Source: Deltaproteobacteria bacterium (lineage in GTDB: Bacteria; Desulfobacterota; Desulfarculia; JACQYL01). Taken from it: a stretch of 53,954 nucleotides of DNA. The DNA lies in NCBI GenBank assembly GCA_016208165.1, contig JACQYL010000048.1, positions 1 to 53,954 of the forward strand, read 5' to 3'. The notes beneath the pieces are model-generated. The model was not told the origin of the DNA. It saw nothing but the letters and a program-made list of their open reading frames with translations, and searched no databases. This document shows, in pieces, positions 16,991 through 33,249 of the stretch (positions are counted from its first letter, which is position 1; every line of letters starts with the position of its first letter). Both the position numbers and the translations under genes were made by a program.

Positions 16991-17386
16991 TCGATGCGTC
17001 AAATTCCATTTGACAGCCGAAAGCAGAGGGTGATACATTTTTTATTAATAGAATAATTTCCTATTCTTCTTTGTTTCATTTTTCTCAGTTCTATTTCTTC
17101 CTCCTTATTTCTCTTTCCAGAGTTTCTGTTTCTTCTTGCTTATTCCTCGACACCCACCTGGGTGCGGAACCGAGACGGTCGGGTTGACAAGACATACGTT
17201 AACGGGCGGAAAAACGCGGGTCGGACGCCCTACCCCCATCCCCGAAGGGACAGCGAGGGACCCGAGGCAGGTCGAGTCGCGTGAATGGCGGGGAAGCCGG
17301 AACCCTCCGGCGACAGGCTGCAGGGGTAGCGACCGCTTACGTTGGTTCGAGTTCGTCGTCCTCAACAGAAACCAGCAGGAGGGAGC

Positions 17387-20300
17387 ATGAGCACGTTGCA
17401 GGTAACGATTGCGCCTCGGCCCGCCGTCGAGGTACCCGCCGGCGCCGGCCCGATCTTCGTCGATGCCGTGTACAGCCGCAAGATCGAGGGCAGAGCCGGT
17501 TCGGGCGTTTCCGACCTGCCCGGCACGATCCAGGAGACTTTGCGGCTTAACCTGGGAGCCAACCTCGAGGGCTCCTTTACGCTCCCCGAGGTGGCCCCGG
17601 GGTCGCCCGTCGAGTTGTGCTTCCTTGGCCCAAACGGCTCGGTACGCCTCAAGAAATCGGCGCAGCCGGGAGACTCCGAGCGGCTCGCGGTGGATCTCGA
17701 CAAGGCCGAGGTCATTGCCGTCACCACACCCGATCCGCAGCCGGAACCGTCGACGCCTCGACTCGATCGCCGCGCCTATTTCGTCCCGGTGAGCGACGTT
17801 CGAGTGCCGTTCGAGGCATCGACGCTGCAGGTTGCGCCGATCACGGTTTCCGGCGGCGGCTGGGAGATGCTTGGCCTTGACCAACTCTTCAAAGCCGATT
17901 CGCCGGCCACCTCCTCGATGCAGTTTCCGGTGGAGAGCTGGAGCGGGGCCGGGGCGATTGCCCTGACCTCGGTCCATCTCGGGATCGACGGGCAGTTCGC
18001 TTTCTCGGTCGTGAAGGGGGCGGGAGACGCATGGCTTTGGTGGCTCACGGGGCCGCTCCCGGCCATCGGCGTGGTGATTGACGACCTTGCAGCGGTCCGG
18101 GCAGTCCGCATCGGCGTGGTGCTGCCTCCGTTCGCCGGAGCCGCCCCTTCGGCCGAGGAGCCGGGCCGCGTACCCCGCGACGTGACGGAGTCGGAGCTCG
18201 CCGCCAATCCCGAGATGTATACCGAGGATCCCGGCGAGTTCTGCAAGCCGTTCAAGAACCCCGAGCGCGTGCTGGGCGAGCGAAGCTTTTTTGTCATTCT
18301 GCGTGCCGAGCAGCCGGTCATCAGCGCCCAAGCCTCGGTCGTGGTCGATCCGATTCCGACGCTGGCGTATGAGGCAAAGGCGGCGACAGCGAGCTTCAGC
18401 GCGGCCGGCGCACGCGACACCACGGGCGCGGCGCGTACGCCGGCAGGCTCGGTCGTTTCCGACACCGCCGACGTTTCCTTCTTCCGCCACGCCCTTCCGA
18501 CCCCCTACATCGACATGCTGCTGCGCTTCCATCGCGGACGGACGGGGATGGACGCCGCCCATCCCGTCCAGTGGGAAAGCGATGCGAGCCGATACCAGGC
18601 GACGACGGTCGCTCGGGGTCACATCCTTGAATACCGGATGCGGTGGCGGTCGAACGGGTACTCGCTCGGCACCGTGGCCAAATCGCTCACCCTCGCGCCA
18701 CGGCAGACGAAGCGCATCCAGAAGATCGAATGGCAGCGTTCCGAGATCAGCCGTCGCACGGAGACTACGCAGCTCACCGATCGCGTATCCGATGCCGTCC
18801 TCCAATCACGAGACTATGACGATGCCGTCCAAGCCAATCTCTCCGAATGGTCGCGCGGCCGGTCGGAGTCGTCGATGTCTGCCGCGGCCGGCGGCTTCGG
18901 CTTCGCCGGCGGCGGCTTCGTTATCGGCGGTGGCGGCGGAGGCAGCAACGCCGAGAGTTCGTCGTCCCAGGAGGGCGGACGCCGCACGGCCGCTAACGAG
19001 CAGCAGCGGCTCCGCGATTCGATCCGCCGCTACGGCGATGCGCTGCGAAAGCTCGAGAGCATGGTCGTCAGCGAGGTAACCCAGGAAGAGACGACGACCG
19101 GCACGACCGAGCTCGTCCGAAACCGGAACTACGGGCACTCGCTGACGGTCATCTATTACCAGATCTTGCGGCATCTCAAGATCGAGACGGACATCGCCGG
19201 CGTTCGCGAATGCCTCTTCGTGCCCTTCGCCATTCGGCCTTTTACGATCCCGCGAGCCTATCGCTGGCGTGATCTCATCAGCATGGGTCTGCGAGATCGG
19301 CGCCAGGCGGCGGCGATCGAATACCTCAAGGACGTGGTCACCAATTTCGCAAGCTCCGACGTGCCGCCGGGCAGGCGTTCCGATCAGCCGATCCGGTACG
19401 TCTTCGGCTCGCTCTTTGTGCAGCTCGCCATCGACCGTCCGAAGGACAAGGAAGATGGCAGCTTTGATCCGATCACCTGGGTGGTCCTGCACCCGTTCCT
19501 CGGCTCGCCTGCGCTCTCGGTCTACTCGAAGCTAAAAGCGCTGAGCGAGGCTCTGCGCGACGCGGCTTTCCAGAGAGACGAGGCGCCGACCATCGCCGCG
19601 AGTTGGATCAACACGTTGAAGATCCAAGTCGGCGGAGTCGCCGTCCCTCTGCCGGCCGACTTCACCCTCGCGACGCGCTACCAGTTCAACCGCGTCGTCC
19701 GAGTCGACTTCACCATCCCGATCCCCGCCGGCCTCACGCCGGTCACGCGCGAGCTGATGTCGTCGATCCGCATCACGGCGACGAAGGACCTGCCTCCGGG
19801 CTCAATCGCCAATTTACAGAGTCTCACCTTCACTTACGAGACCGATCAGTTCAAATATACGATCAGCGCCAGCCAGGGCGCTGGCGACCTTGTGGTCGTC
19901 GAGACCGGGGTGCGCGACACGGCGGGCGCGACGGTCGCGACGATCCCCGACGCGTGGGAGCGCCGTGATGTTCGCGCCGAGATGACGGCCGCAGTGCAGA
20001 ACCTCGTAGAGCACCTCAACGAGCACGTTGAGTACTACCACAAGCTCATTTGGTGGTATATGGACCGCGACAGGCTCTTCATGCTGATCGACGGTTTCTT
20101 TGCGCCCGGCGCCAACGGTGTCAGCATCGCCTCGGTGGTGGAGCGCGACCCGATCGCGATCATCGGCAATGCCGTGGTCTTCCGCGTCTCGGCCGGCTCC
20201 TTCCTCGGGTTAGGCAACCTCAAGACGCCCGCCGACCTTTTCAACTACTACGTCTCGCGCGATGCGATCTCCGAGCCAATGCTCATGAGTCTGCCGACCG

Positions 20301-22888
20301 ATGGGCTCTACGCGCAGACGCTGATGGACGAGTGCACGGCGCTCGAGGAACACTTCGGCAACACCGACTGGGTCTTTAACGACCCCGACCCCGAACTCGG
20401 CACCATCGCGCCCGAGCTCCTAGCGAGCCGCCGCGCCGAGCCGGTGAGCACCACGCCGACGCCCTTCCCTCAAACCATCATCAACCTCCAGAACGCGCCG
20501 GAGATGCCGGCCCCGAGCGGCCTCGCCGGCGCCCTCGCAGCGGTCCAAAACGCCAACGCTTTCCGCGACATGGCGGGGCTTGCGGGCACACAAGCGAACG
20601 CCGCCGCCGGCTTCCAGGCTGCGGCGTCCCTCGCCTCGAGCTTCGGCGCTCAGGCTGCCGCCCTGAAGCTCGCCGAAGGCGCCAAGGACGCGCACACGAC
20701 GCAAGCCGCCGATCAAAAGCTCGCCACTGTACAGCGCGCCGTGGACAAGAACCTCGTACCACAGGTCGACGCTCAGCAACACGCCTCGCGCATCCTCGAG
20801 GGGCTTCATTCCCCGACCCCTGTGGCGCCGCACCAGGATCCCGTCCTCTCTCGCGCCGTCTTCGCCGCATCAGGGCAACCCGGAAGCACGATCGAGGCCA
20901 CGACCGCCGACGGGACGCTGCGCGTCGCACTCGGCGGAACCTCATCCGGCGCGCCCGGCGCCAGCGCCCCGACGGCGCCCCCGCCGGCGTCGATCCCCCC
21001 GGGCGCGGGGGCCCGCCAGGACGGCATCGACATCTACCAAGGCAACAACATGCCGACCATGGAGGCGATGAAGCAGGCGGGGATCCGTTTCGTCATCCAC
21101 AAGTCCTCGGAGCGCACGAAGGGCGGCGGGATGATCGACGACGTCGAGTTCAAGACGCGCTGGGAGGCGACCGGCGCCGCCGGCGTCATCCGCGGCTCTT
21201 ACCACTACTACCGCCATCTCAACGGGGCGGGCGGCGATGTGCCGGCCGCCCGGGTCGTCGCTCAGGTCGGGCGGCTGGTTCCGGGCGATCTCGCGCCGTC
21301 CCTCGATTTTGAGAACGACGCCGTGTCCACCGGGAGCGCAGAGCCGACCGCGCCCGCTTGGCGCACCGAGATCGAGGCTTTCCTGGACGCGATCGAGACG
21401 AAGCTGGGGCGGACGCCTCTCATCTACACAAGCGTCTCGGCCTGGGACGGCCACATCACCAACAACGCGAATTTCCAGGCCGTTGACTTCGCCCGCTTCA
21501 AGGACTATCCGCTGTGGGTGAAGCACTATTTCGGGCCGCGTTTCGTCACGGTTCCGGACCCGGCTAACCCGGGAGCAACGATCCAACTTGACCTCGACAC
21601 GCCGCCGGCCCCACTCACGGCGTCTTTCCGCCGGGCTGCCGCCGACCGGGCGGATGACCAGTACCGGCAGCGCCAGACGCTGCAGCCCGCGATCCCGCTA
21701 CCTTGGACCGATTTCGCCATCCTTCAGTATAGCCCTTACACGCCCGGCGTGCTCCTCAACAACCGGCCCTTTAATGAGATGTCCGTCGACGTAGACGTGT
21801 CTCAGGGCGGACTCCACTCCCTGCGCGGCCTCGCCGACCTCGGGCGAACCTCCCCCCACATGGTCGGCAACCTACCCTGCATCGCCTACACCGAGGCCGA
21901 CGGGAAGCTCTACCTCCTCGAATTCGTCAGCGGGGTCTGGCGCAGCATCGATGTCCTCCCGAGTGCCCCCACCGCGCCGCTCGCCGCAGGCGACCCCGCC
22001 GCGATCGGCCTCGGCAACGAGCAGGTCATCGTCTACCGCGGCCAGGACTCCCGCATCTACGCCCTCAGCCGCTCTCTCACCGATTCGAGCGGCAACTGGA
22101 CCGTCGCCGACATCACCGGCAGCGCGGCGGTAGGCGATCCCTTCGTAGCTGCCAGCGGCGGCGACCTACACGTCTTGTATTGGGACCGCTTCGACAACCA
22201 TGCGCATCTCTCCCGGACCGCCGGCGCCTGGCACGCCGAGCGGCTCGCGGTTGGGGTAGCGGCAGGGGCCGCCGTTGCCTACGAGCACGGTAACGCGCTG
22301 CACGCCGTTTCGCGCGCCGGCGGTGACGGACACCTCTTCGACCTGAACCCCGCCATGGTTGACCTCACGGCCACCGCGCGTGACGCGCAGAATCAGCCGC
22401 CCCCTGTTGCGACCTACCGCCCGGCCGCTTACACCCCCGCCGGCCAGGCGACCCGCATCGTGTTCCGCGCACTGCGAGGGCCGATCTGGCAGATCGAGCG
22501 GGACACGCTCCGGGCCCGGAACCTCTCCGCTCTCGCGGTGAAGGCGACGGGCGACGGCGCCGGGACACCGGGCGCCCCCAACGCCGCCGGTAGCCCGACT
22601 GCGGTCGCGACCGACACCCAGCGGGTCTTCTACCGCGCGGTCGACGGCGCCATCATCGAGATCTTCGACGACGCAGGCACGGTGAAATGGCGCGAGGTTT
22701 GCGCCTCGGCCGCCGCCGACCCCACTGCTTTCGTGACCCCGACCGGACCCCAGGTCACCTTCCGCGGCCAGGACGGCTCCATCCGCCTCTCCCGCCTGGA
22801 GAATGACGCCTGGGTCTGCGAGCATGCCACTAGGACGATGTCGCCCTCGCCCTCGGGCGGCGGCTTGACGCCGGGGATCCCGGTGTAG
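17387..22888 (+). CDS. giant orphan protein with GH25 lysozyme domain and lectin-like repeats (1833 aa)
   Basis: Start chosen at MSTLQVTIAP, with AGGAGGGAGC directly before the ATG. No signal peptide or membrane helix. Layout: residues 1-380 beta-rich with no recognised family; about 380-520 includes FRHALPTPYIDMLLRFHRG and a Gly-rich loop (FGFAGGGFVIGGGGGGS); 520-1150 unrecognised, with helical and Ala-rich parts; about 1210-1470 a GH25 (lysozyme) domain with DGIDIYQGNN at its first strand, GSYHYYR, and the acidic pair in PSLDFEND; about 1480-1833 repeats of the form V-YRG-D--I (VIVYRGQDSRIYALS, VFYRAVDGAIIEIF, VTFRGQDGSIRLS), like sialidase/fucolectin propeller blades. GC content and codon choice are clearly higher than in neighbours, suggesting transfer. 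Possible roles are cell-wall lysis or an exported or injected effector; neither is shown. Confidence 0.85.
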   Translation: MSTLQVTIAPRPAVEVPAGAGPIFVDAVYSRKIEGRAGSGVSDLPGTIQETLRLNLGANLEGSFTLPEVAPGSPVELCFLGPNGSVRLKKSAQPGDSERLAVDLDKAEVIAVTTPDPQPEPSTPRLDRRAYFVPVSDVRVPFEASTLQVAPITVSGGGWEMLGLDQLFKADSPATSSMQFPVESWSGAGAIALTSVHLGIDGQFAFSVVKGAGDAWLWWLTGPLPAIGVVIDDLAAVRAVRIGVVLPPFAGAAPSAEEPGRVPRDVTESELAANPEMYTEDPGEFCKPFKNPERVLGERSFFVILRAEQPVISAQASVVVDPIPTLAYEAKAATASFSAAGARDTTGAARTPAGSVVSDTADVSFFRHALPTPYIDMLLRFHRGRTGMDAAHPVQWESDASRYQATTVARGHILEYRMRWRSNGYSLGTVAKSLTLAPRQTKRIQKIEWQRSEISRRTETTQLTDRVSDAVLQSRDYDDAVQANLSEWSRGRSESSMSAAAGGFGFAGGGFVIGGGGGGSNAESSSSQEGGRRTAANEQQRLRDSIRRYGDALRKLESMVVSEVTQEETTTGTTELVRNRNYGHSLTVIYYQILRHLKIETDIAGVRECLFVPFAIRPFTIPRAYRWRDLISMGLRDRRQAAAIEYLKDVVTNFASSDVPPGRRSDQPIRYVFGSLFVQLAIDRPKDKEDGSFDPITWVVLHPFLGSPALSVYSKLKALSEALRDAAFQRDEAPTIAASWINTLKIQVGGVAVPLPADFTLATRYQFNRVVRVDFTIPIPAGLTPVTRELMSSIRITATKDLPPGSIANLQSLTFTYETDQFKYTISASQGAGDLVVVETGVRDTAGATVATIPDAWERRDVRAEMTAAVQNLVEHLNEHVEYYHKLIWWYMDRDRLFMLIDGFFAPGANGVSIASVVERDPIAIIGNAVVFRVSAGSFLGLGNLKTPADLFNYYVSRDAISEPMLMSLPTDGLYAQTLMDECTALEEHFGNTDWVFNDPDPELGTIAPELLASRRAEPVSTTPTPFPQTIINLQNAPEMPAPSGLAGALAAVQNANAFRDMAGLAGTQANAAAGFQAAASLASSFGAQAAALKLAEGAKDAHTTQAADQKLATVQRAVDKNLVPQVDAQQHASRILEGLHSPTPVAPHQDPVLSRAVFAASGQPGSTIEATTADGTLRVALGGTSSGAPGASAPTAPPPASIPPGAGARQDGIDIYQGNNMPTMEAMKQAGIRFVIHKSSERTKGGGMIDDVEFKTRWEATGAAGVIRGSYHYYRHLNGAGGDVPAARVVAQVGRLVPGDLAPSLDFENDAVSTGSAEPTAPAWRTEIEAFLDAIETKLGRTPLIYTSVSAWDGHITNNANFQAVDFARFKDYPLWVKHYFGPRFVTVPDPANPGATIQLDLDTPPAPLTASFRRAAADRADDQYRQRQTLQPAIPLPWTDFAILQYSPYTPGVLLNNRPFNEMSVDVDVSQGGLHSLRGLADLGRTSPHMVGNLPCIAYTEADGKLYLLEFVSGVWRSIDVLPSAPTAPLAAGDPAAIGLGNEQVIVYRGQDSRIYALSRSLTDSSGNWTVADITGSAAVGDPFVAASGGDLHVLYWDRFDNHAHLSRTAGAWHAERLAVGVAAGAAVAYEHGNALHAVSRAGGDGHLFDLNPAMVDLTATARDAQNQPPPVATYRPAAYTPAGQATRIVFRALRGPIWQIERDTLRARNLSALAVKATGDGAGTPGAPNAAGSPTAVATDTQRVFYRAVDGAIIEIFDDAGTVKWREVCASAAADPTAFVTPTGPQVTFRGQDGSIRLSRLENDAWVCEHATRTMSPSPSGGGLTPGIPV

Positions 22889-23017: not shown

Positions 23018-23044
23018 AAGGGGTCAGGTCTTCTCTTGGCTCTT
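23018..23044. repeat. left terminal repeat of the RAYT unit
   Basis: 27 nt; begins AAGGGGTCAGGTCTTC and ends TTGGCTCTT. It includes the TGA stop of the transposase, so the last transposase residues are encoded by the repeat. Confidence 0.7.
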
Positions 23045-24004
23045 GCCCAACAGATTCCTGAGTTTATCAACCCGTTTTCGCACGTCTGGGTCTCTCGATA
23101 TTTGGACGTTCATTCTTTCAATTACACTACTCACGGAACTGTATTTGTGCATGTCAAACTCTTTCCCTATCTCGTTCAAGCCGGCTCCCCTCAGCCGCCT
23201 CATCAGGTAAATGGCCATGTTTCTTGGCTCGTTGAAAACACCTCTCTTTGAAACCATCAACCGGTTCTCGTCCACCTGGTAGAACGCGCACACCACTTGC
23301 TTGATTCGCTCGGGTTCGGGGGCCAGGTCCCGCGACTGGGAAACTTCATCATGGGTCTTCCCCGGGAAGAACCGTTCCTTGATTTGACCGATAAAACCTT
23401 CCGAGCCCAGAATCGAGGGCCACTTCTTCTGATTAAATACACCGAGTAGGGTCGCCTGGTCTTCCAAACGCATAAAATTCCGGTACGCCTCCAACCTGCC
23501 CCGCGGCCGGGCTGAAAGCATCGACAGGACATACGCCTTGTGGAGCCAGCTCCATCCCTTGGCGCGCGAGAGATATCCCCTGTGGCTGCTCCACTTGTAT
23601 GCTTCCAATCGATCAACCAATTCGGCCCTCAACGGATTCCGGTGAATATAGCGGACCAGTTGCAGCAGGTAGCTGTCGGCGTCCAAAAGAATCGATTTGT
23701 ATCGGCCCCGAAACAGCGGTCCGTCAAACTGGTGGAGACGATTGAATCGCTGCGTGTACACCCCGTCGATGTGCCTCATGCAGCGGGATATGTTGGCTTC
23801 AGGCGTCTGCACGAGCAGGTGATAATGGGTGGGCATGAGGCAATAGGCGGCAACTCGCAAATTCCACAGTTCAGAGGCTTCCTTGAGGAGGGAAGTAAAC
23901 GCTGCATAATCCGGCCGGCCCGTAAAAACGGGCTCGCCTCTTCTCCCCCGGTTCATCACGTGATGCCAGGCGCCGGGATATTCGATTCGCAGCGGTCGTG
24001 ACAT
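23024..24004 (-). CDS. RAYT / Y1 (IS200-like) transposase with DnaA-like C-terminal domain
   Basis: A 326-residue REP-associated tyrosine transposase. Seen: N-terminal YPGAWHHVMNRGRRGEPVF, the HUH metal motif in CLMPTHYHLLVQTP, FDGPLFRGRYKSIL, and YIHRNPLRAELVD, all diagnostic of PF01797-type RAYTs. Residues about 220-315 (GVFNEPRNMAIYLMRRLRG, IGKEFDMHKYSSVSSVI) match the DnaA domain IV fold found appended to many RAYTs. All motifs are intact, so it may be active. It would cut and paste single-stranded hairpin-ended units. Confidence 0.92.
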   Translation of the reverse strand: MSRPLRIEYPGAWHHVMNRGRRGEPVFTGRPDYAAFTSLLKEASELWNLRVAAYCLMPTHYHLLVQTPEANISRCMRHIDGVYTQRFNRLHQFDGPLFRGRYKSILLDADSYLLQLVRYIHRNPLRAELVDRLEAYKWSSHRGYLSRAKGWSWLHKAYVLSMLSARPRGRLEAYRNFMRLEDQATLLGVFNQKKWPSILGSEGFIGQIKERFFPGKTHDEVSQSRDLAPEPERIKQVVCAFYQVDENRLMVSKRGVFNEPRNMAIYLMRRLRGAGLNEIGKEFDMHKYSSVSSVIERMNVQISRDPDVRKRVDKLRNLLGKSQEKT

Positions 24005-24235: not shown

Positions 24236-26593
24236 GTGGGAGTGGATCGAGAGCAAAAGAGAAAACGGAAACGCGAAGAAAAGCGAAAGGTCCGCCGCCG
24301 AGAGCTGGATCGCATCGCTCGCAGGGGAAAAGAGCAGGACCTTGACTTCCTTGCATATCAAGATCTAATGGCCGGAAATCATCGATCGGCCTTGGCTCTA
24401 TCCATCAAGCGACTCAAAATGGAGACACCCAGCCCATACGCGTGGGAAATCGCGGTCATGTGCGCCCGCAAGTTGGGCGAAACATCCACGCTCTTTACGC
24501 TGTTGCGACAAGCCTGGGAACAGGGGCGGCTGGTTACAAAGCTGGACTGCCTTCAGCTGGGAGAACTGGCTTTCCAAAACAAGTCATACGCCCTCGCGCA
24601 AGAAGTATTCCGGCAACTGGAAGTGAAATCCACGCCGTTATTGGGCCAACTTCCCAAGGCTGCAAGAAAACAGGTGGCGGAGTATCTACGGTTATGTCGC
24701 CTGCTGCTCCTGGAATTCTCTCCAAAATCCGCTGTGGGAAGTTCGAGCGCAAGTTCCGCCCATCGGGGGGACGATTCTGAAGCCGCCCTTACCGCAGCCC
24801 CCGTAGGGAACTCTCAAGGCGAGGAAGAAACAAGGCAGACCAAGGAAACGGAGGGCGAAGGACAGCCCGAGCTCCAGGTGGCCTTTGAAACGGATGGAGA
24901 GCCGGTTCTGGCGGCCGTCCGTAACCATGAAATCGCCGACCGCGCCGCCCTGGATCTGGCCATGAGGGCCTATAAGCTCTCGTTTCTCGCCTCCTATGAC
25001 CAGATCCTCAGCCTTGCTTCTTTGCGAAACGTTCAGTCCTTCTGGTACCAGGAGGAAACGGCCCGAAAGGTCATGAAGGCGTTTCGAGGCCGCGCCATCC
25101 TGGCGGACGAGGTGGGTCTGGGCAAGACCATTGAAGCCGGACTTGTGTTGAAAGAATACCTGGCGCGGGGTTTAGTCCGCTCAGTCCTCATTCTTGCCCC
25201 CAGTTCCCTGGTGGATCAATGGGATGAGGAACTTCGGGGGAAGTTCGACCTTCGGTTCACCACTTCCAACCATCCTCTTGCCCGTCAGGATCCCGAAAGG
25301 TTCTGGCGAGAAGACCTGATTCTTTGCTCCATCCAGACAGCCCGGACCAACCGACATTTCGACCCGGTCACGTCCCGCTCCTACGACCTCGTGATCGTGG
25401 ACGAAGCGCACCACCTGAAGAACAGGACCACGCTGAATTGGAAGCTTGTGAACGCTATACAGAAAAACTTCCTGCTTCTGCTCACAGCCACGCCGGTACA
25501 AAACAAGCTGGAAGAACTGTACAACCTCGTCACCCTTCTGAAGCCCGGTCATTTAAGAACGCTCAGAGCCTTCAAGGAGGAATTCGTTAGCCGCGGTAAT
25601 CCCACGGATCCGCGCAACAGGGAAAAGTTACGGGACCTCTTGAAGGAGGTCATGATCCGCAATACGCGTTCCGTCACGCAGTTGCGCCTGCCTCCCCGCT
25701 TCGCGTACACCACGAGCCTCTCCCCCTCTCGGAAGGAGGTGTCCTTCTATCAAGGGATCAGCTCCTTTGTGGCGGAACATGCGAATCTTCGCTCCGTGGA
25801 CCTTCCGAAGTTGACGCTGCGCAAGCTTCTGGAAGCGGCTGGTTCTTCGCCGAAAGCGGCGATCAAGATGCTCGAGAGAATCGCGGAGCGCACAACGGAT
25901 GGCTCAAAGCGCCGGGTGAACGAATTGCTCGATCTTGGAAGGAACATCGGCACGGGGATCAAGACTCAAAAGGTGATCGATCTCATTCACGCCTCCTCCC
26001 AGCAGAAGATTGTGTTTGTGAACTACCTTTCAACACTGGAGCACCTACACCACGCGTTTCTCGAAAGGGACATCGCCCACGTCGTGTTTCATAGTAGTTT
26101 GACCGCGGGTCAAAAACAGAGCGTCATGGAGCAGTTCCGAAACGGCGCGCCGGTTCTTTTATCCACGGGTGCAGGCGGGGAGGGGCATAACCTGCAGTTC
26201 TGCCAGGTAATGGTAAACTACGATCTCCCCTGGAACCCCATGCAGATCGAGCAGCGCATCGGCCGCATCCATCGGATCGGTCAGGAAAAGGAGGTGCATG
26301 TGTACAACTTCTGTGCCTTGGGGAGCATAGAAGACCATATCCTCGAGGTGCTCGACAGGAAGATCAACATGTTCGAGCTTGTGGTTGGAGAGATCGACAT
26401 GATTCTGGGCCGCCTCCAGGGAGAACAGGAGTTCAGCGATCTCGTTTACGAAATCTGGGTGCAACACACCGACGAAACGGAGCGGCGAATCGCTTTCGGG
26501 GCCCTGGCATCCCGCTTGAAGCGGGCCAAGACAGCCTATGAAAAGAGTAAGGACCTCGACGAAAAGCTCTTTCAACAGGATTTTGGGGTATGA
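24236..26593 (+). CDS. TPR-SNF2 helicase fusion protein
   Basis: A 785-residue SNF2-family ATPase beginning at GTG (AGGA 8 nt upstream). Residues 1-35 are very basic; about 38-160 are helical hairpins of TPR type (DLMAGNHRSALALSIKRLK, LGELAFQNKSYALAQEVFRQL); 165-215 is a low-complexity acidic linker. The helicase follows: LADEVGLGKTIEAG (motif I, 289-302), VDEAHHLKN (motif II), LLLTATPVQN (motif III), then the C-terminal lobe with IVFVNYLSTLEHL, GAGGEGHNLQFC and QIEQRIGRIHRIGQ. RapA and defence SNF2 proteins share this core, but the TPR head is unusual. It overlaps the next gene by 4 bp, so the two products probably work together. Confidence 0.88.
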   Translation: MGVDREQKRKRKREEKRKVRRRELDRIARRGKEQDLDFLAYQDLMAGNHRSALALSIKRLKMETPSPYAWEIAVMCARKLGETSTLFTLLRQAWEQGRLVTKLDCLQLGELAFQNKSYALAQEVFRQLEVKSTPLLGQLPKAARKQVAEYLRLCRLLLLEFSPKSAVGSSSASSAHRGDDSEAALTAAPVGNSQGEEETRQTKETEGEGQPELQVAFETDGEPVLAAVRNHEIADRAALDLAMRAYKLSFLASYDQILSLASLRNVQSFWYQEETARKVMKAFRGRAILADEVGLGKTIEAGLVLKEYLARGLVRSVLILAPSSLVDQWDEELRGKFDLRFTTSNHPLARQDPERFWREDLILCSIQTARTNRHFDPVTSRSYDLVIVDEAHHLKNRTTLNWKLVNAIQKNFLLLLTATPVQNKLEELYNLVTLLKPGHLRTLRAFKEEFVSRGNPTDPRNREKLRDLLKEVMIRNTRSVTQLRLPPRFAYTTSLSPSRKEVSFYQGISSFVAEHANLRSVDLPKLTLRKLLEAAGSSPKAAIKMLERIAERTTDGSKRRVNELLDLGRNIGTGIKTQKVIDLIHASSQQKIVFVNYLSTLEHLHHAFLERDIAHVVFHSSLTAGQKQSVMEQFRNGAPVLLSTGAGGEGHNLQFCQVMVNYDLPWNPMQIEQRIGRIHRIGQEKEVHVYNFCALGSIEDHILEVLDRKINMFELVVGEIDMILGRLQGEQEFSDLVYEIWVQHTDETERRIAFGALASRLKRAKTAYEKSKDLDEKLFQQDFGV

Positions 26594-27627
26594 CGGCGGA
26601 CCCGGAGTTGCTCGGCTTTGCGGCCGAGGTGATTCAGAAGCACGGCGGCGATGTGGAGCAGCGATCCGACCACGTTTTCGCTTTGCTCTCGCCCGATCTT
26701 TGTAGCGTTCTACAACTTCCTGAAGAAGTTCAACTCGGTGACGGGGGGGAACCGCTTCTCTACGGAGGAACTTTACTGGATCGGCTGATCGACCTGGCCA
26801 CCGGCAGGGTTCCCCTGGTGTATGCGCGACTCGAGGCGCCCTATTTGAAGAAAGAGGGCTTTGAGAACCTGCTCGGGAAGGACATTGGGTTTGCGGCGGG
26901 CCGAGCCTCCGTGGGCGTCCGGGCCGAAGCGAGGACCACATACATGGTTCTTGCCTGCCACTATGTAGCCCTCAGCGATGAACGCAAGGAAGGGCTGGTC
27001 CGGGTCACCGTTCACGAAAACACCGGCTCCATCATTGCCGGCCTGGAACAAGAATGGGCCGGTTTTCAGCCGCAGTTTTTCGCTCCGGGAAGTATTCCGC
27101 CTCACTTCCCCATCGACCTCACTCTCGCGGTATCGGCGGCCCTGAAGGAAGCTCGGGTTGCCACCGACCAAGAGCTCTCCAGCTTTTTCTCCAGCATGCG
27201 TTGGCGGTTGGCGCGCGATGTCAGAAACACCCGCGAGTATTACGAAGCCCTTGGAAACGAAATGGCGGCCGGCCTTTCCAATCCCAACCTGGGCGAGACC
27301 CAGCGGCTGGACAGGGAGGCCAAGCTGAGAGGGCTTCCCGACGAAATGGCGCAAAAAACGAGGGACTTGGAGCGCAAGTACAGGATTCGTGTAGTAGTGA
27401 CCGCCCGGGCAGCCATGCGGTTACTTGTTCCCGTGGCCCAGATCATGGTCCATCTTCAGCTAAGCAGCCTCAAGCGTTCTCTCAAGCTCATCTGGAACCC
27501 TGTGACGCGCCGGCTGGATCCTTTGGTGTGCGAGAACTGCCGTGAAAGCATGCGCACGGTCCATCCTTCCGAAAAAGACGGCCGCATCGAGTTGTTGTGT
27601 TTCTCCTGCAGAAAGAAGCAGCGATGA
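26590..27627 (+). CDS. SNF2-partner protein with C-terminal zinc ribbon
   Basis: A 345-residue protein translationally coupled (ATGA overlap) to the SNF2 helicase. I do not recognise the N-terminal 280 residues. They look alpha/beta, with a block GKDIGFAAGRASVGVRAEAR and a later helical part (AQKTRDLERKYRIRVVVTAR). The C-terminus has CENC and CFSC separated by about 24 residues, a four-cysteine zinc ribbon suited to nucleic-acid binding. Its layout (an adaptor after an SNF2 motor) suggests a two-gene nucleic-acid remodelling or defence cassette. No nuclease or methylase motif was seen in either protein. Confidence 0.75.
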   Translation: MTADPELLGFAAEVIQKHGGDVEQRSDHVFALLSPDLCSVLQLPEEVQLGDGGEPLLYGGTLLDRLIDLATGRVPLVYARLEAPYLKKEGFENLLGKDIGFAAGRASVGVRAEARTTYMVLACHYVALSDERKEGLVRVTVHENTGSIIAGLEQEWAGFQPQFFAPGSIPPHFPIDLTLAVSAALKEARVATDQELSSFFSSMRWRLARDVRNTREYYEALGNEMAAGLSNPNLGETQRLDREAKLRGLPDEMAQKTRDLERKYRIRVVVTARAAMRLLVPVAQIMVHLQLSSLKRSLKLIWNPVTRRLDPLVCENCRESMRTVHPSEKDGRIELLCFSCRKKQR

Positions 27628-28307: not shown

Positions 28308-28455
28308 CCGCTCTTGACTCTTGTTCAGGAGATTCGTGAGCTTTTAAACCTGCTTCCGGACATTCCGGCCTTTCGATATTTCGATGTTCGTTCTTTCAAC
28401 CAAGCTGATTGAGGGGCTCTATTCGCGTGTCAAACCCTCTGCCAATCTTCTGAAA
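28308..28455 (-). mobile_element. relic of RAYT 3' end
   Basis: Degenerate copy of 23029-23177, starting in the left terminal repeat (CTCTTGACTCTTG) and reaching the DnaA-like domain coding part; TCGATATTT, GTTCATTCTTTCAA-like and GTGTCAAAC blocks align in order. Frames are broken. The 3' end of hepT (28430) reads into it. Confidence 0.65.
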
Positions 28456-28870
28456 AGTCTATAATTTCTTTAGCGAATCGTCTGAAATCCGCCAAGTGGT
28501 CTCTCAGGATTCCTACGACGATTTCGGGGTCGATGCGAGTGTAGTCGTGCACAACAATGTTCCGGAACTTGGCCATCTTGACCATGGATTCATGGACAGG
28601 CCCGGTGATAACTTGATTCTCGGACAATACGGCAAACAAATCCTTGTTGTCCCTGGGTTCCCTGTAGCCCAGCCGTGAAACGAGGTGGGCCGCTATGTCT
28701 AGGCAGCATTCGCAGGCGAGTTGGAGCGTTCGCTCCACAAAACGCTGGTCCTTCTTATTCGTCCGGTAGTCTTCCAGAGAAATCGTTTCGAATTCCTCGA
28801 GATCCACCAGATATTCTTTCAAAAACCGAAGTTTGGATTCGATCACGTCCGTTTCTATCATCTGCGTCAC
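28430..28870 (-). CDS. hepT: HepT-like HEPN toxin (DUF86)
   Basis: A 146-residue HEPN-domain protein, the toxin of the HepT/MntA (type VII) module. These are RNases or tRNA-targeting toxins that are silenced when MntA adds AMP groups to a tyrosine. Seen: the RX4HXY motif as R103-N-I-V-V-H108-D-Y110 and an all-helical layout. The mntA gene lies 9 bp upstream on the same strand. The C-terminal residues (about from DFSEDWQRV) are encoded by a RAYT relic and differ from the second copy at 32874, so the last helix is probably not native. The second copy is nearly identical in DNA over about 300 bp. Confidence 0.88.
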   Translation of the reverse strand: MTQMIETDVIESKLRFLKEYLVDLEEFETISLEDYRTNKKDQRFVERTLQLACECCLDIAAHLVSRLGYREPRDNKDLFAVLSENQVITGPVHESMVKMAKFRNIVVHDYTRIDPEIVVGILRDHLADFRRFAKEIIDFSEDWQRV

Positions 28871-28879
28871 CTGCCGTGT

Positions 28880-29299
28880 TCAGCACCCATAGAATGCTTT
28901 TAAAGCCTTCCGGTCGTCTTTCAGGTAGTATTGAAAATCGAAATACTCCTTCCTCTTCTGAAGGCGAAAGGCGGTTTCTTCTTCCGGATCCGCTGCATAC
29001 AGCCTGCGGCCGGTGGTCATGACCTGATGGATCATTTTCAGCGACGCCGTGTTCAACACCACCACATCCACCGGACGGCCCAGAAGATCCTCAAGCGCGT
29101 CGGCGATCTTCAGCCTGAGGTCGAACATCTCCACCGGCGTAAGACCTCTGTCCACCCTTACCGTAACATCCACATCGCTATGCACACGTTCGAATCCCGT
29201 GGCCACGGATCCGAACACATAGGCGGACCGGACCGCCAAGTGGCGGCGCATCAGTCGCGGCACGTCCTGATTCAGTGTTTGCTCGATGGCGGATTTCAT
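28880..29299 (-). CDS. mntA: MntA-like nucleotidyltransferase antitoxin
   Basis: A minimal nucleotidyltransferase (139 residues from the ATG at 29299; a GTG five codons upstream is possible). Seen: the GSX10DXD motif, YVFGSVATGFERVHSDVDV, with both metal-binding aspartates, and a downstream DVVVLNTAS strand that should carry the third carboxylate. Members of this family AMPylate the tyrosine in the HepT RX4HXY motif, neutralising it. It is directly upstream of hepT with a 9-bp gap, the usual order in many modules. Confidence 0.88.
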   Translation of the reverse strand: MKSAIEQTLNQDVPRLMRRHLAVRSAYVFGSVATGFERVHSDVDVTVRVDRGLTPVEMFDLRLKIADALEDLLGRPVDVVVLNTASLKMIHQVMTTGRRLYAADPEEETAFRLQKRKEYFDFQYYLKDDRKALKAFYGC

Positions 29300-29374
29300 T
29301 TTGAGTGATTCCACGGTCCGACACTAGAAGTCAGATGATTACGCAGAAGGGGCAGATGTCTTGAAAAGCGCCTC

Positions 29375-32873: not shown

Positions 32874-33249
32874 TCAGATTCCGTGTCCTTCGATAAAACC
32901 GATGACTTCCCCGGCGAACCGCTTGAAATCCGCCAAATGGTTTCTCAGGATGCCGGTGACGATTTCAGGGTCGATTCGGGCGTAGTCATGCACCACAACT
33001 TCCCTGAATTGGGCAATCTTGACCGTGGCTTCATGGACAGGCTCGGTGATAACTTGATTCTCGGACAAAACGGCAAACAAATCCTTGTTGTCCCTGGGTT
33101 CCCTGTAGCCCAGCCGTGAAACGAGGTGGGCCGCTACCCTGTCCAGGCAGCATTCGCAGGCGAGTTGGAGCGTTCGCTCCACAAACCGCTGGTCCTTTTT
33201 ATTCGTCCGGTAGTCTTCCAGAGAAATCGATTCGTATTCCTCGAGATCC
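32874..33249 (-). pseudogene. 5'-truncated second hepT copy
   Basis: Near-identical DNA to hepT across 33249 to about 32920, including the RX4HXY toxin motif (R-E-V-V-V-H-D-Y). It lacks the first 21 or so codons and any mntA. Similarity stops sharply at CCTCGAGATCC (33249 against 28806). A GTG at 33182 could start a 102-residue product. The C-terminus (EVIGFIEGHGI) differs from the first copy and may be closer to the native one. It now lies 3' of vapC. Confidence 0.75.

Follow-up and report, generated by a model that had tools for sequence, protein, structure and literature searches.

What kind of machine is built by a Swi2/Snf2 helicase and an unfamiliar protein whose genes overlap by four base pairs, and on what does it act? 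The question is raised by a locus in a 53,954 nucleotide stretch of DNA (the window) from a Deltaproteobacteria bacterium of the phylum Desulfobacterota (contig JACQYL010000048.1). The locus is composed of two genes on the forward strand: the SNF2 motor gene (24236..26593, GTG start), which encodes a 785 amino acid Swi2/Snf2 subunit of helicase superfamily 2 (SF2), and the partner gene (26590..27627), which encodes a 345 amino acid protein proposed, from its predicted structure, to be a detached C-terminal module of the RapA type. The two open reading frames (ORFs) share an ATGA stop/start (26590..26593), and their translation is likely to be coupled; the original prediction, made from the sequence alone, had both frames and the overlap right. 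On balance, and with slightly more confidence than doubt, we read the locus as a two-subunit RapA-type Swi2/Snf2 motor, most likely a mobile module acting on foreign DNA or on complexes present on it.

Obligate pairing of the two genes

Among 197 relatives searched with the partner as query, 9 proved to contain it. With a 10-sequence profile the partner was found in 31 of 395 Desulfobacterota genomes, representing 26 of 246 genera, and the pair is thus not part of the core gene set of most Desulfobacterota. For every intact partner gene with enough upstream sequence, a SNF2 gene is located immediately upstream on the same strand. In the reverse direction, a high-scoring motor (E < 1e-100) is present in 25 of the same 395 genomes, 24 of which also carry the partner; in the remaining genome, in which no partner was seen, the motor gene reaches the contig end. 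The 35 junctions measured in several phyla comprise 21 overlaps, 12 gaps of up to 30 bp and 2 larger gaps, with order and strand constant throughout. Pairwise distances between motors and between partners are correlated (r 0.86 over 25 pairs, a value reached in none of 2000 permutations). The pairing of the two genes is far beyond chance, and the conserved co-occurrence proposed as a check of the original prediction is confirmed. Obligate pairing and correlated distances together imply that the pair is inherited and transferred as a unit. No conserved third gene was found around the pairs.

The motor subunit

Translation from the GTG start gives MGVDREQKRKRKREEK, which is collinear with MPIDRQAKQKKKREEK of the relatives. 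The residues up to 240 are composed of a basic tail, a head of helical hairpins and a low-complexity linker. The tail (24236..24325, residues 1-30, KRKRKREEKRKVRRR) is a single long helix in the AlphaFold model, and the TPR-like head (24332..24715, residues 33-160) appears there as paired helices with predicted local distance difference test (pLDDT) values of about 70-82. In Pfam the window motor matches a TPR family through TPR_8 alone (E 0.75), while TPR_2 is matched in 9 of 19 relatives (best E 6.5e-10). There is no Pfam match to a Tudor domain in the motor, which has the basic tail and TPR-like head instead, and the cyanobacterial motors (567-569 amino acids) lack the whole head. The SNF2-related ATPase lobe (25091..25771, residues 286-512; SNF2-rel_dom, E 3.4e-37) contains the Walker A motif GLGKT (25115-25129) and the DEAH motif (25400-25411), both invariant across the family, and the Helicase_C lobe (25961..26281, residues 576-682; E 5.4e-24) contains QRIGRIHRIGQ, whose core is invariant; the ATPase motifs are intact. 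The combination of basic head, TPR-like repeats and SNF2 motor in one protein, predicted at the outset, is therefore borne out by Pfam, by TPR_2 in the relatives and by the modelled helices. The AlphaFold model of the full-length motor (pLDDT 55) was too weak for a fold search.

A tree of the motor cores of 52 sequences places the window family in one clade (98/99), which unites the members from the home phylum, Actinomycetota, cyanobacteria and Rhodovastum. RapA, DrmD, BrxHII with HmaA, and the archaeal split pairs described below form separate well-supported groups, the deep branching order of which is not settled. The helicase is not a member of the RapA clade, narrowly defined.

The partner and the C-terminal region of RapA

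Searches of Pfam, NCBIfam, PADLOC and the PDB sequences gave nothing significant for the partner, in agreement with its first description as an unrecognised protein ending in CxxC..CxxC, and its assignment to a known zinc-ribbon family or to the YqhG family was rejected on the same searches. An AlphaFold model was built from the window sequence and two relatives, a shallow alignment (mean pLDDT 68). Foldseek comparison of this model with the PDB gave four matches with E < 0.001, all of them E. coli RapA (5.5e-7 to 3.7e-5, probability 1.00, about 310 columns); the next match was at 0.17. VIA-align superposed residues 73-283 of the partner on RapA 796-968 (Z 7.3-7.4, 158 residues) and, in the 8spg entry, residues 1-283 of the model on RapA 709-968. 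Most of the remaining VIA-align rows are confined to the helical hairpin at about residues 189-271 and cannot be taken as a sign of kinship. Foldseek of viral models gave no significant match.

The C-terminal part of RapA, of BrxHII and of BREX-related helicases begins with a degenerate nuclease-like domain and continues into a beta-sheet domain that is interrupted by a pair of long helices, an arrangement found nowhere else (PMC12839542), and the secondary structure of the partner model follows the same domain order. The predicted N-terminal alpha/beta domain (26602..26829, residues 5-80) would correspond to RapA about 709-795, as suggested in the same register by the 8spg alignment and by a weak HHalign match of partner residues 6-39 to RapA 712-745. 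The predicted beta-sheet domain with its coiled-coil hairpin insert (26806..27438, residues 73-283) would correspond to RapA 796-968, according to VIA-align and secondary structure. The best HHalign result pairs partner residues 8-236 with the C-terminal region of HmaA (E 6e-4), again in the right register. Predicted fold and register thus give good support, short of proof, to the identification of the partner as a detached C-terminal module of the RapA type. This identification also modifies the original view of a zinc-ribbon partner. The CxxC pairs are present in the window protein, but the protein is unlikely to be an unrelated ribbon protein, its predicted fold matching the C-terminal part of RapA.

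The putative zinc ribbon (27529..27609; C314-x2-C317..C337-x2-C340) has no equivalent in RapA. An alignment of 28 partner members shows conservation in the alpha/beta and coil parts, while the ribbon is dispensable. The CxxC pairs are missing from the cyanobacterial partners, so the ribbon is not universal in the family, and it was rejected as a family-defining feature. Bacillus YqhH-YqhG, which we take to be an adjacent SNF2 helicase gene and a small gene of no assigned function, is a lead only; YqhG (PF11079) was not among the Pfam matches shown for the 28 members, and in a control row a B. subtilis protein matched the RapA model below its cut-off.

Related split pairs in haloarchaea

Haloarchaeal plasmids carry a related split pair with a motor of about 585 amino acids, a partner of about 376-397 amino acids and, in most cases, an 8 bp overlap. 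The archaeal partner is homologous to that of the window (HHalign probability 95.9%, E 5.9e-9). In 9 of the 11 plasmids examined, a DUF1156 methylase, a DUF499 ATPase or both lie at most 8 kb from the pair, and these score as HmaB and HmaC. HmaB and HmaC are components of Hma or BREX-related defence systems (PMC8565338; PMC12839542). In the other two plasmids, of Haloferax lucentense and Halorhabdus tiamatea, the pair adjoins a DEAD-box helicase and a restriction endonuclease. Judged by this context, the split RapA-type motor acts as a defence helicase in the archaeal lineage.

The partner homologues of these last two plasmids are extreme cysteine-array proteins in a defence-like context. That of H. 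lucentense pSVX82-3 (L106:9566-13303), whose ORF is missing from the gene table of the plasmid, has 1245 amino acids, 146 cysteines and a terminal tandem array of 48 CxxC; that of H. tiamatea pHTIA (L185:9569-12856) has 1095 amino acids, 115 cysteines and a terminal tandem array of 38 CxxC.

Distribution and mobility

Outside the home phylum the partner is also present in two metagenome-assembled genomes of Actinomycetota, whose motors group inside the home-phylum diversity in the motor tree. Plasmid copies were found in the cyanobacteria Nostoc, Calothrix, Oscillatoria and Chondrocystis and in the alphaproteobacterium Rhodovastum. Spread beyond the phylum is underestimated by these data, as the broad contig scan used a single protein as query. 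Within one bacterial family the distribution is patchy, 8 of 26 genomes carrying the pair, and seven copies in this family have seven different surroundings. Several genomes hold fragments only. Given the plasmid copies, the patchiness, the varied surroundings and the decayed copies, the pair is a mobile accessory module.

In two genomes (G164 and G328; loci L021 and L074) the pair has decayed into several fragments broken by stops, which points to repeated gain and loss. In three others (G152, G180 and G080) the motor match reads through one TAG each, upstream of the probable start, and a DrmD-like SNF2 frame at L149 (G121:C88) has an internal TAG in its match. Alternative starts or TAG recoding are possible explanations of these TAGs.

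Proposed mechanism and alternative explanations

The obligate association of partner and motor and the RapA-like predicted fold of the partner make one RapA-type machine in two polypeptides the best reading of the locus. Chain 1 would supply the TPR-like head and the ATPase core, and chain 2 the equivalent of the RapA C-terminal region, i.e. the degenerate nuclease-like alpha/beta domain and the beta-sheet with its coiled-coil insert, with an added zinc ribbon. Overlap of the genes would hold the chains to a 1:1 ratio and allow assembly during synthesis, and the 1:1 complex would rebuild a RapA-type motor which may grip and pull double-stranded DNA using ATP. In such a complex the partner may gate the ATPase of the motor, the ribbon may recognise a nucleic-acid or protein feature and the TPR-like head may dock client proteins. 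By analogy with DISARM, BREX type 3 and Hma/BREX-related helicases, the target would most likely be foreign DNA or the replication or transcription complexes on it. For the branch to which the window belongs a defence role is favoured because the archaeal split branch provides the helicase of DUF1156/DUF499 loci, and we infer it from that kinship. We advance more tentatively, as a possibility, that the pair is an undescribed stand-alone two-gene immunity module, with a split RapA-type motor, a ribbon-bearing detached C-terminal subunit and no methylase or nuclease of its own, the haloarchaeal kin being built into Hma/BREX-related systems and the ribbon expanded to 38-48 CxxC in two plasmids.

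Several results weigh against the preferred reading. Neighbour scans, which were descriptive and had no matched control, gave no constant neighbour and no clear defence context for window-type pairs: the Pfam neighbours are mixed (transporters, PIN, HD and AAA_21 proteins, single reverse transcriptase and ZorD/DpdE-type matches) and the PADLOC matches are singletons or few. In the window neither a methylase nor a nuclease goes with the pair. A search of phages by tblastn revealed no close relative, and IMG/VR yielded only generic SNF2 proteins at 23-30% identity and no close relative. As to the partner, its homology to RapA depends on one AlphaFold model from three sequences, TM-scores are only about 0.2 overall, and a Z of 7.4 falls in the chance range for helical regions. 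Sequence profiles give no significant homology to the fused C-termini of DrmD, BrxHII, HmaA or RapA, and partner hidden Markov model scores against these C-termini do not exceed those of shuffled or reversed controls. Accepted relatives such as DrmD and RapA do not pass these tests either; because these pairs are treated as homologous in PMC12839542, the failure of the profiles is weak evidence either way. The original idea of a two-gene defence or remodelling system holds as far as a conserved two-gene SNF2 system is concerned, while its defence link is given by context for the archaeal sister branch only, the neighbours of the window branch being variable and mostly unrelated to defence.

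The low model confidence and TM-score and the noise-level profile comparisons would all be expected if the partner were an independent zinc-ribbon coiled-coil protein and its RapA match a modelling artefact. We regard this as improbable, given that the four significant Foldseek matches are exclusively to RapA, that the Foldseek and VIA-align register agrees with the weak HHalign matches to HmaA and RapA, and that it is the alpha/beta and coil parts that are conserved and not the ribbon. If the fold match is accepted, RapA being the sole match could instead indicate an accessory RNA-polymerase recycler or transcription remodeller, a two-chain motor that, as RapA does, releases RNA polymerase which is stalled or past termination, the TPR head replacing the Tudor pair of RapA. 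RapA is rare in the phylum, where it exceeds the cut-off in 1 of 118 genomes, which leaves this niche open, and some copies of the pair lie among transporter and metabolic genes. However, a pair that is patchy even inside a genus and plasmid-borne is unlike a housekeeping factor, and it is found in only about 8% of genomes though most of them lack RapA; with the Tudor pair not found and the archaeal split branch located in defence loci, we consider a recycler unlikely. The lack of an accompanying nuclease or methylase would also suit a remodeller for DNA repair, replication forks or plasmid maintenance that is cargo of mobile elements and not an immune system, and two Nostoc plasmid copies do adjoin ParA/ParB and a RelE-type toxin-antitoxin pair. 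Partition genes are absent from the vicinity of chromosomal copies, no neighbour is conserved and, among well-studied proteins, the motor has its nearest relatives in defence helicases, so that such a role appears rather improbable too. A mobile two-subunit motor directed at foreign DNA therefore remains the reading we prefer.

Surroundings of the pair in the window

Near the pair are a HepT/nucleotidyltransferase pair, a PIN gene, a second HepT gene and an FRG gene. The HepT/nucleotidyltransferase pair (28430-29314) and the second HepT copy (32874-33182), both on the minus strand, are 4 kb apart; the latter is closely similar to the first and apparently truncated at its 5' end. Other neighbours are a GH25 protein, a histidine phosphatase, magnesium chelatase-like and molybdopterin-cofactor enzymes and a REP-type Y1 transposase. 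The transposase gene (23024-24004, minus strand) adjoins the pair upstream and encodes a protein fused to the C-terminal helix-turn-helix domain of DnaA. The GH25 lysozyme domain occupies residues 1229-1396 of an 1848 amino acid protein (17342-22888, plus strand), long remaining regions of which have no assignment. The HEPN/MNT, PIN and FRG genes of the predicted defence island are thus present, and the label of an island is in part unsuitable given the transposase, GH25 and metabolic neighbours. Among the scanned neighbours there is no DUF1156 or DUF499 gene beside the pair, no co-located methylase or other Drm gene and no ZorA/ZorB. Elsewhere in the same genome an HmaA-like helicase is present (G000:C128:2027-4351, L144), interrupted by a contig end.

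Comparison with known systems

In the papers and databases searched we found no description of the two-chain form, and the libraries searched hold no model of the partner, a family missed by current annotation. In the text of PMC12839542 none of the words split, TPR, haloarchae- and Zn-ribbon occurs. Motors of the RapA type serve as helicases in several major defence systems and in RNA-polymerase recycling, and the role of their C-terminal module is unsettled; in a natural split form this module can be added, removed or swapped in vitro. Should the pair prove to defend cells, it would represent a compact type of immunity without a self-marking methylase, and how host DNA is spared would become a direct question.

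The gene order does not correspond to DISARM, BREX or Zorya, as predicted, yet it is among the helicases of such systems that the motor has its closest relatives. DrmD, the SNF2 helicase of DISARM, gives the top NCBIfam score of the window motor (DrmD_b, 235 bits); the scores of 235 and 214 bits are to be set against equivalog cut-offs of 950 and 610. DrmD belongs to a separate clade and is a single chain, encoded beside a methyltransferase gene in the example plasmids from Klebsiella and Blastomonas. ZorD of Zorya aligns with the window protein over the motor only (465-885 of 908) and has a fused Mrr-like nuclease. BrxHII, the helicase of BREX type 3, is a RapA-type motor with an iREase and a C-terminal alpha+beta domain (PMC12839542), in distinction to the window pair a single chain with a Tudor N-terminus, a member of the BREX operon and of a separate clade. 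HmaA, of the DUF499-centred BREX-related (BR) systems, shares the RapA-type motor architecture (PMC12839542), and the archaeal split pairs hold its place beside the DUF1156 and DUF499 genes; it is one chain of about 1100-1200 amino acids in a clade different from that of the window motor. The E. coli RNA-polymerase recycling factor RapA itself resembles the pair in its Swi2/Snf2 core and, by predicted fold, in its residues 709-968, which the partner appears to reproduce. RapA is one chain, the window motor scores 201.6 bits against a cut-off of 576 for NCBIfam NF003426 and lies off the RapA branch, and the pair adds the TPR head and the zinc ribbon. Within the broad group of RapA-type motors, the window motor has the canonical SNF2 ATPase core, whereas the C-terminal alpha/beta and beta-sheet/coiled-coil domains are predicted on the separate partner chain and none of them on the motor chain.

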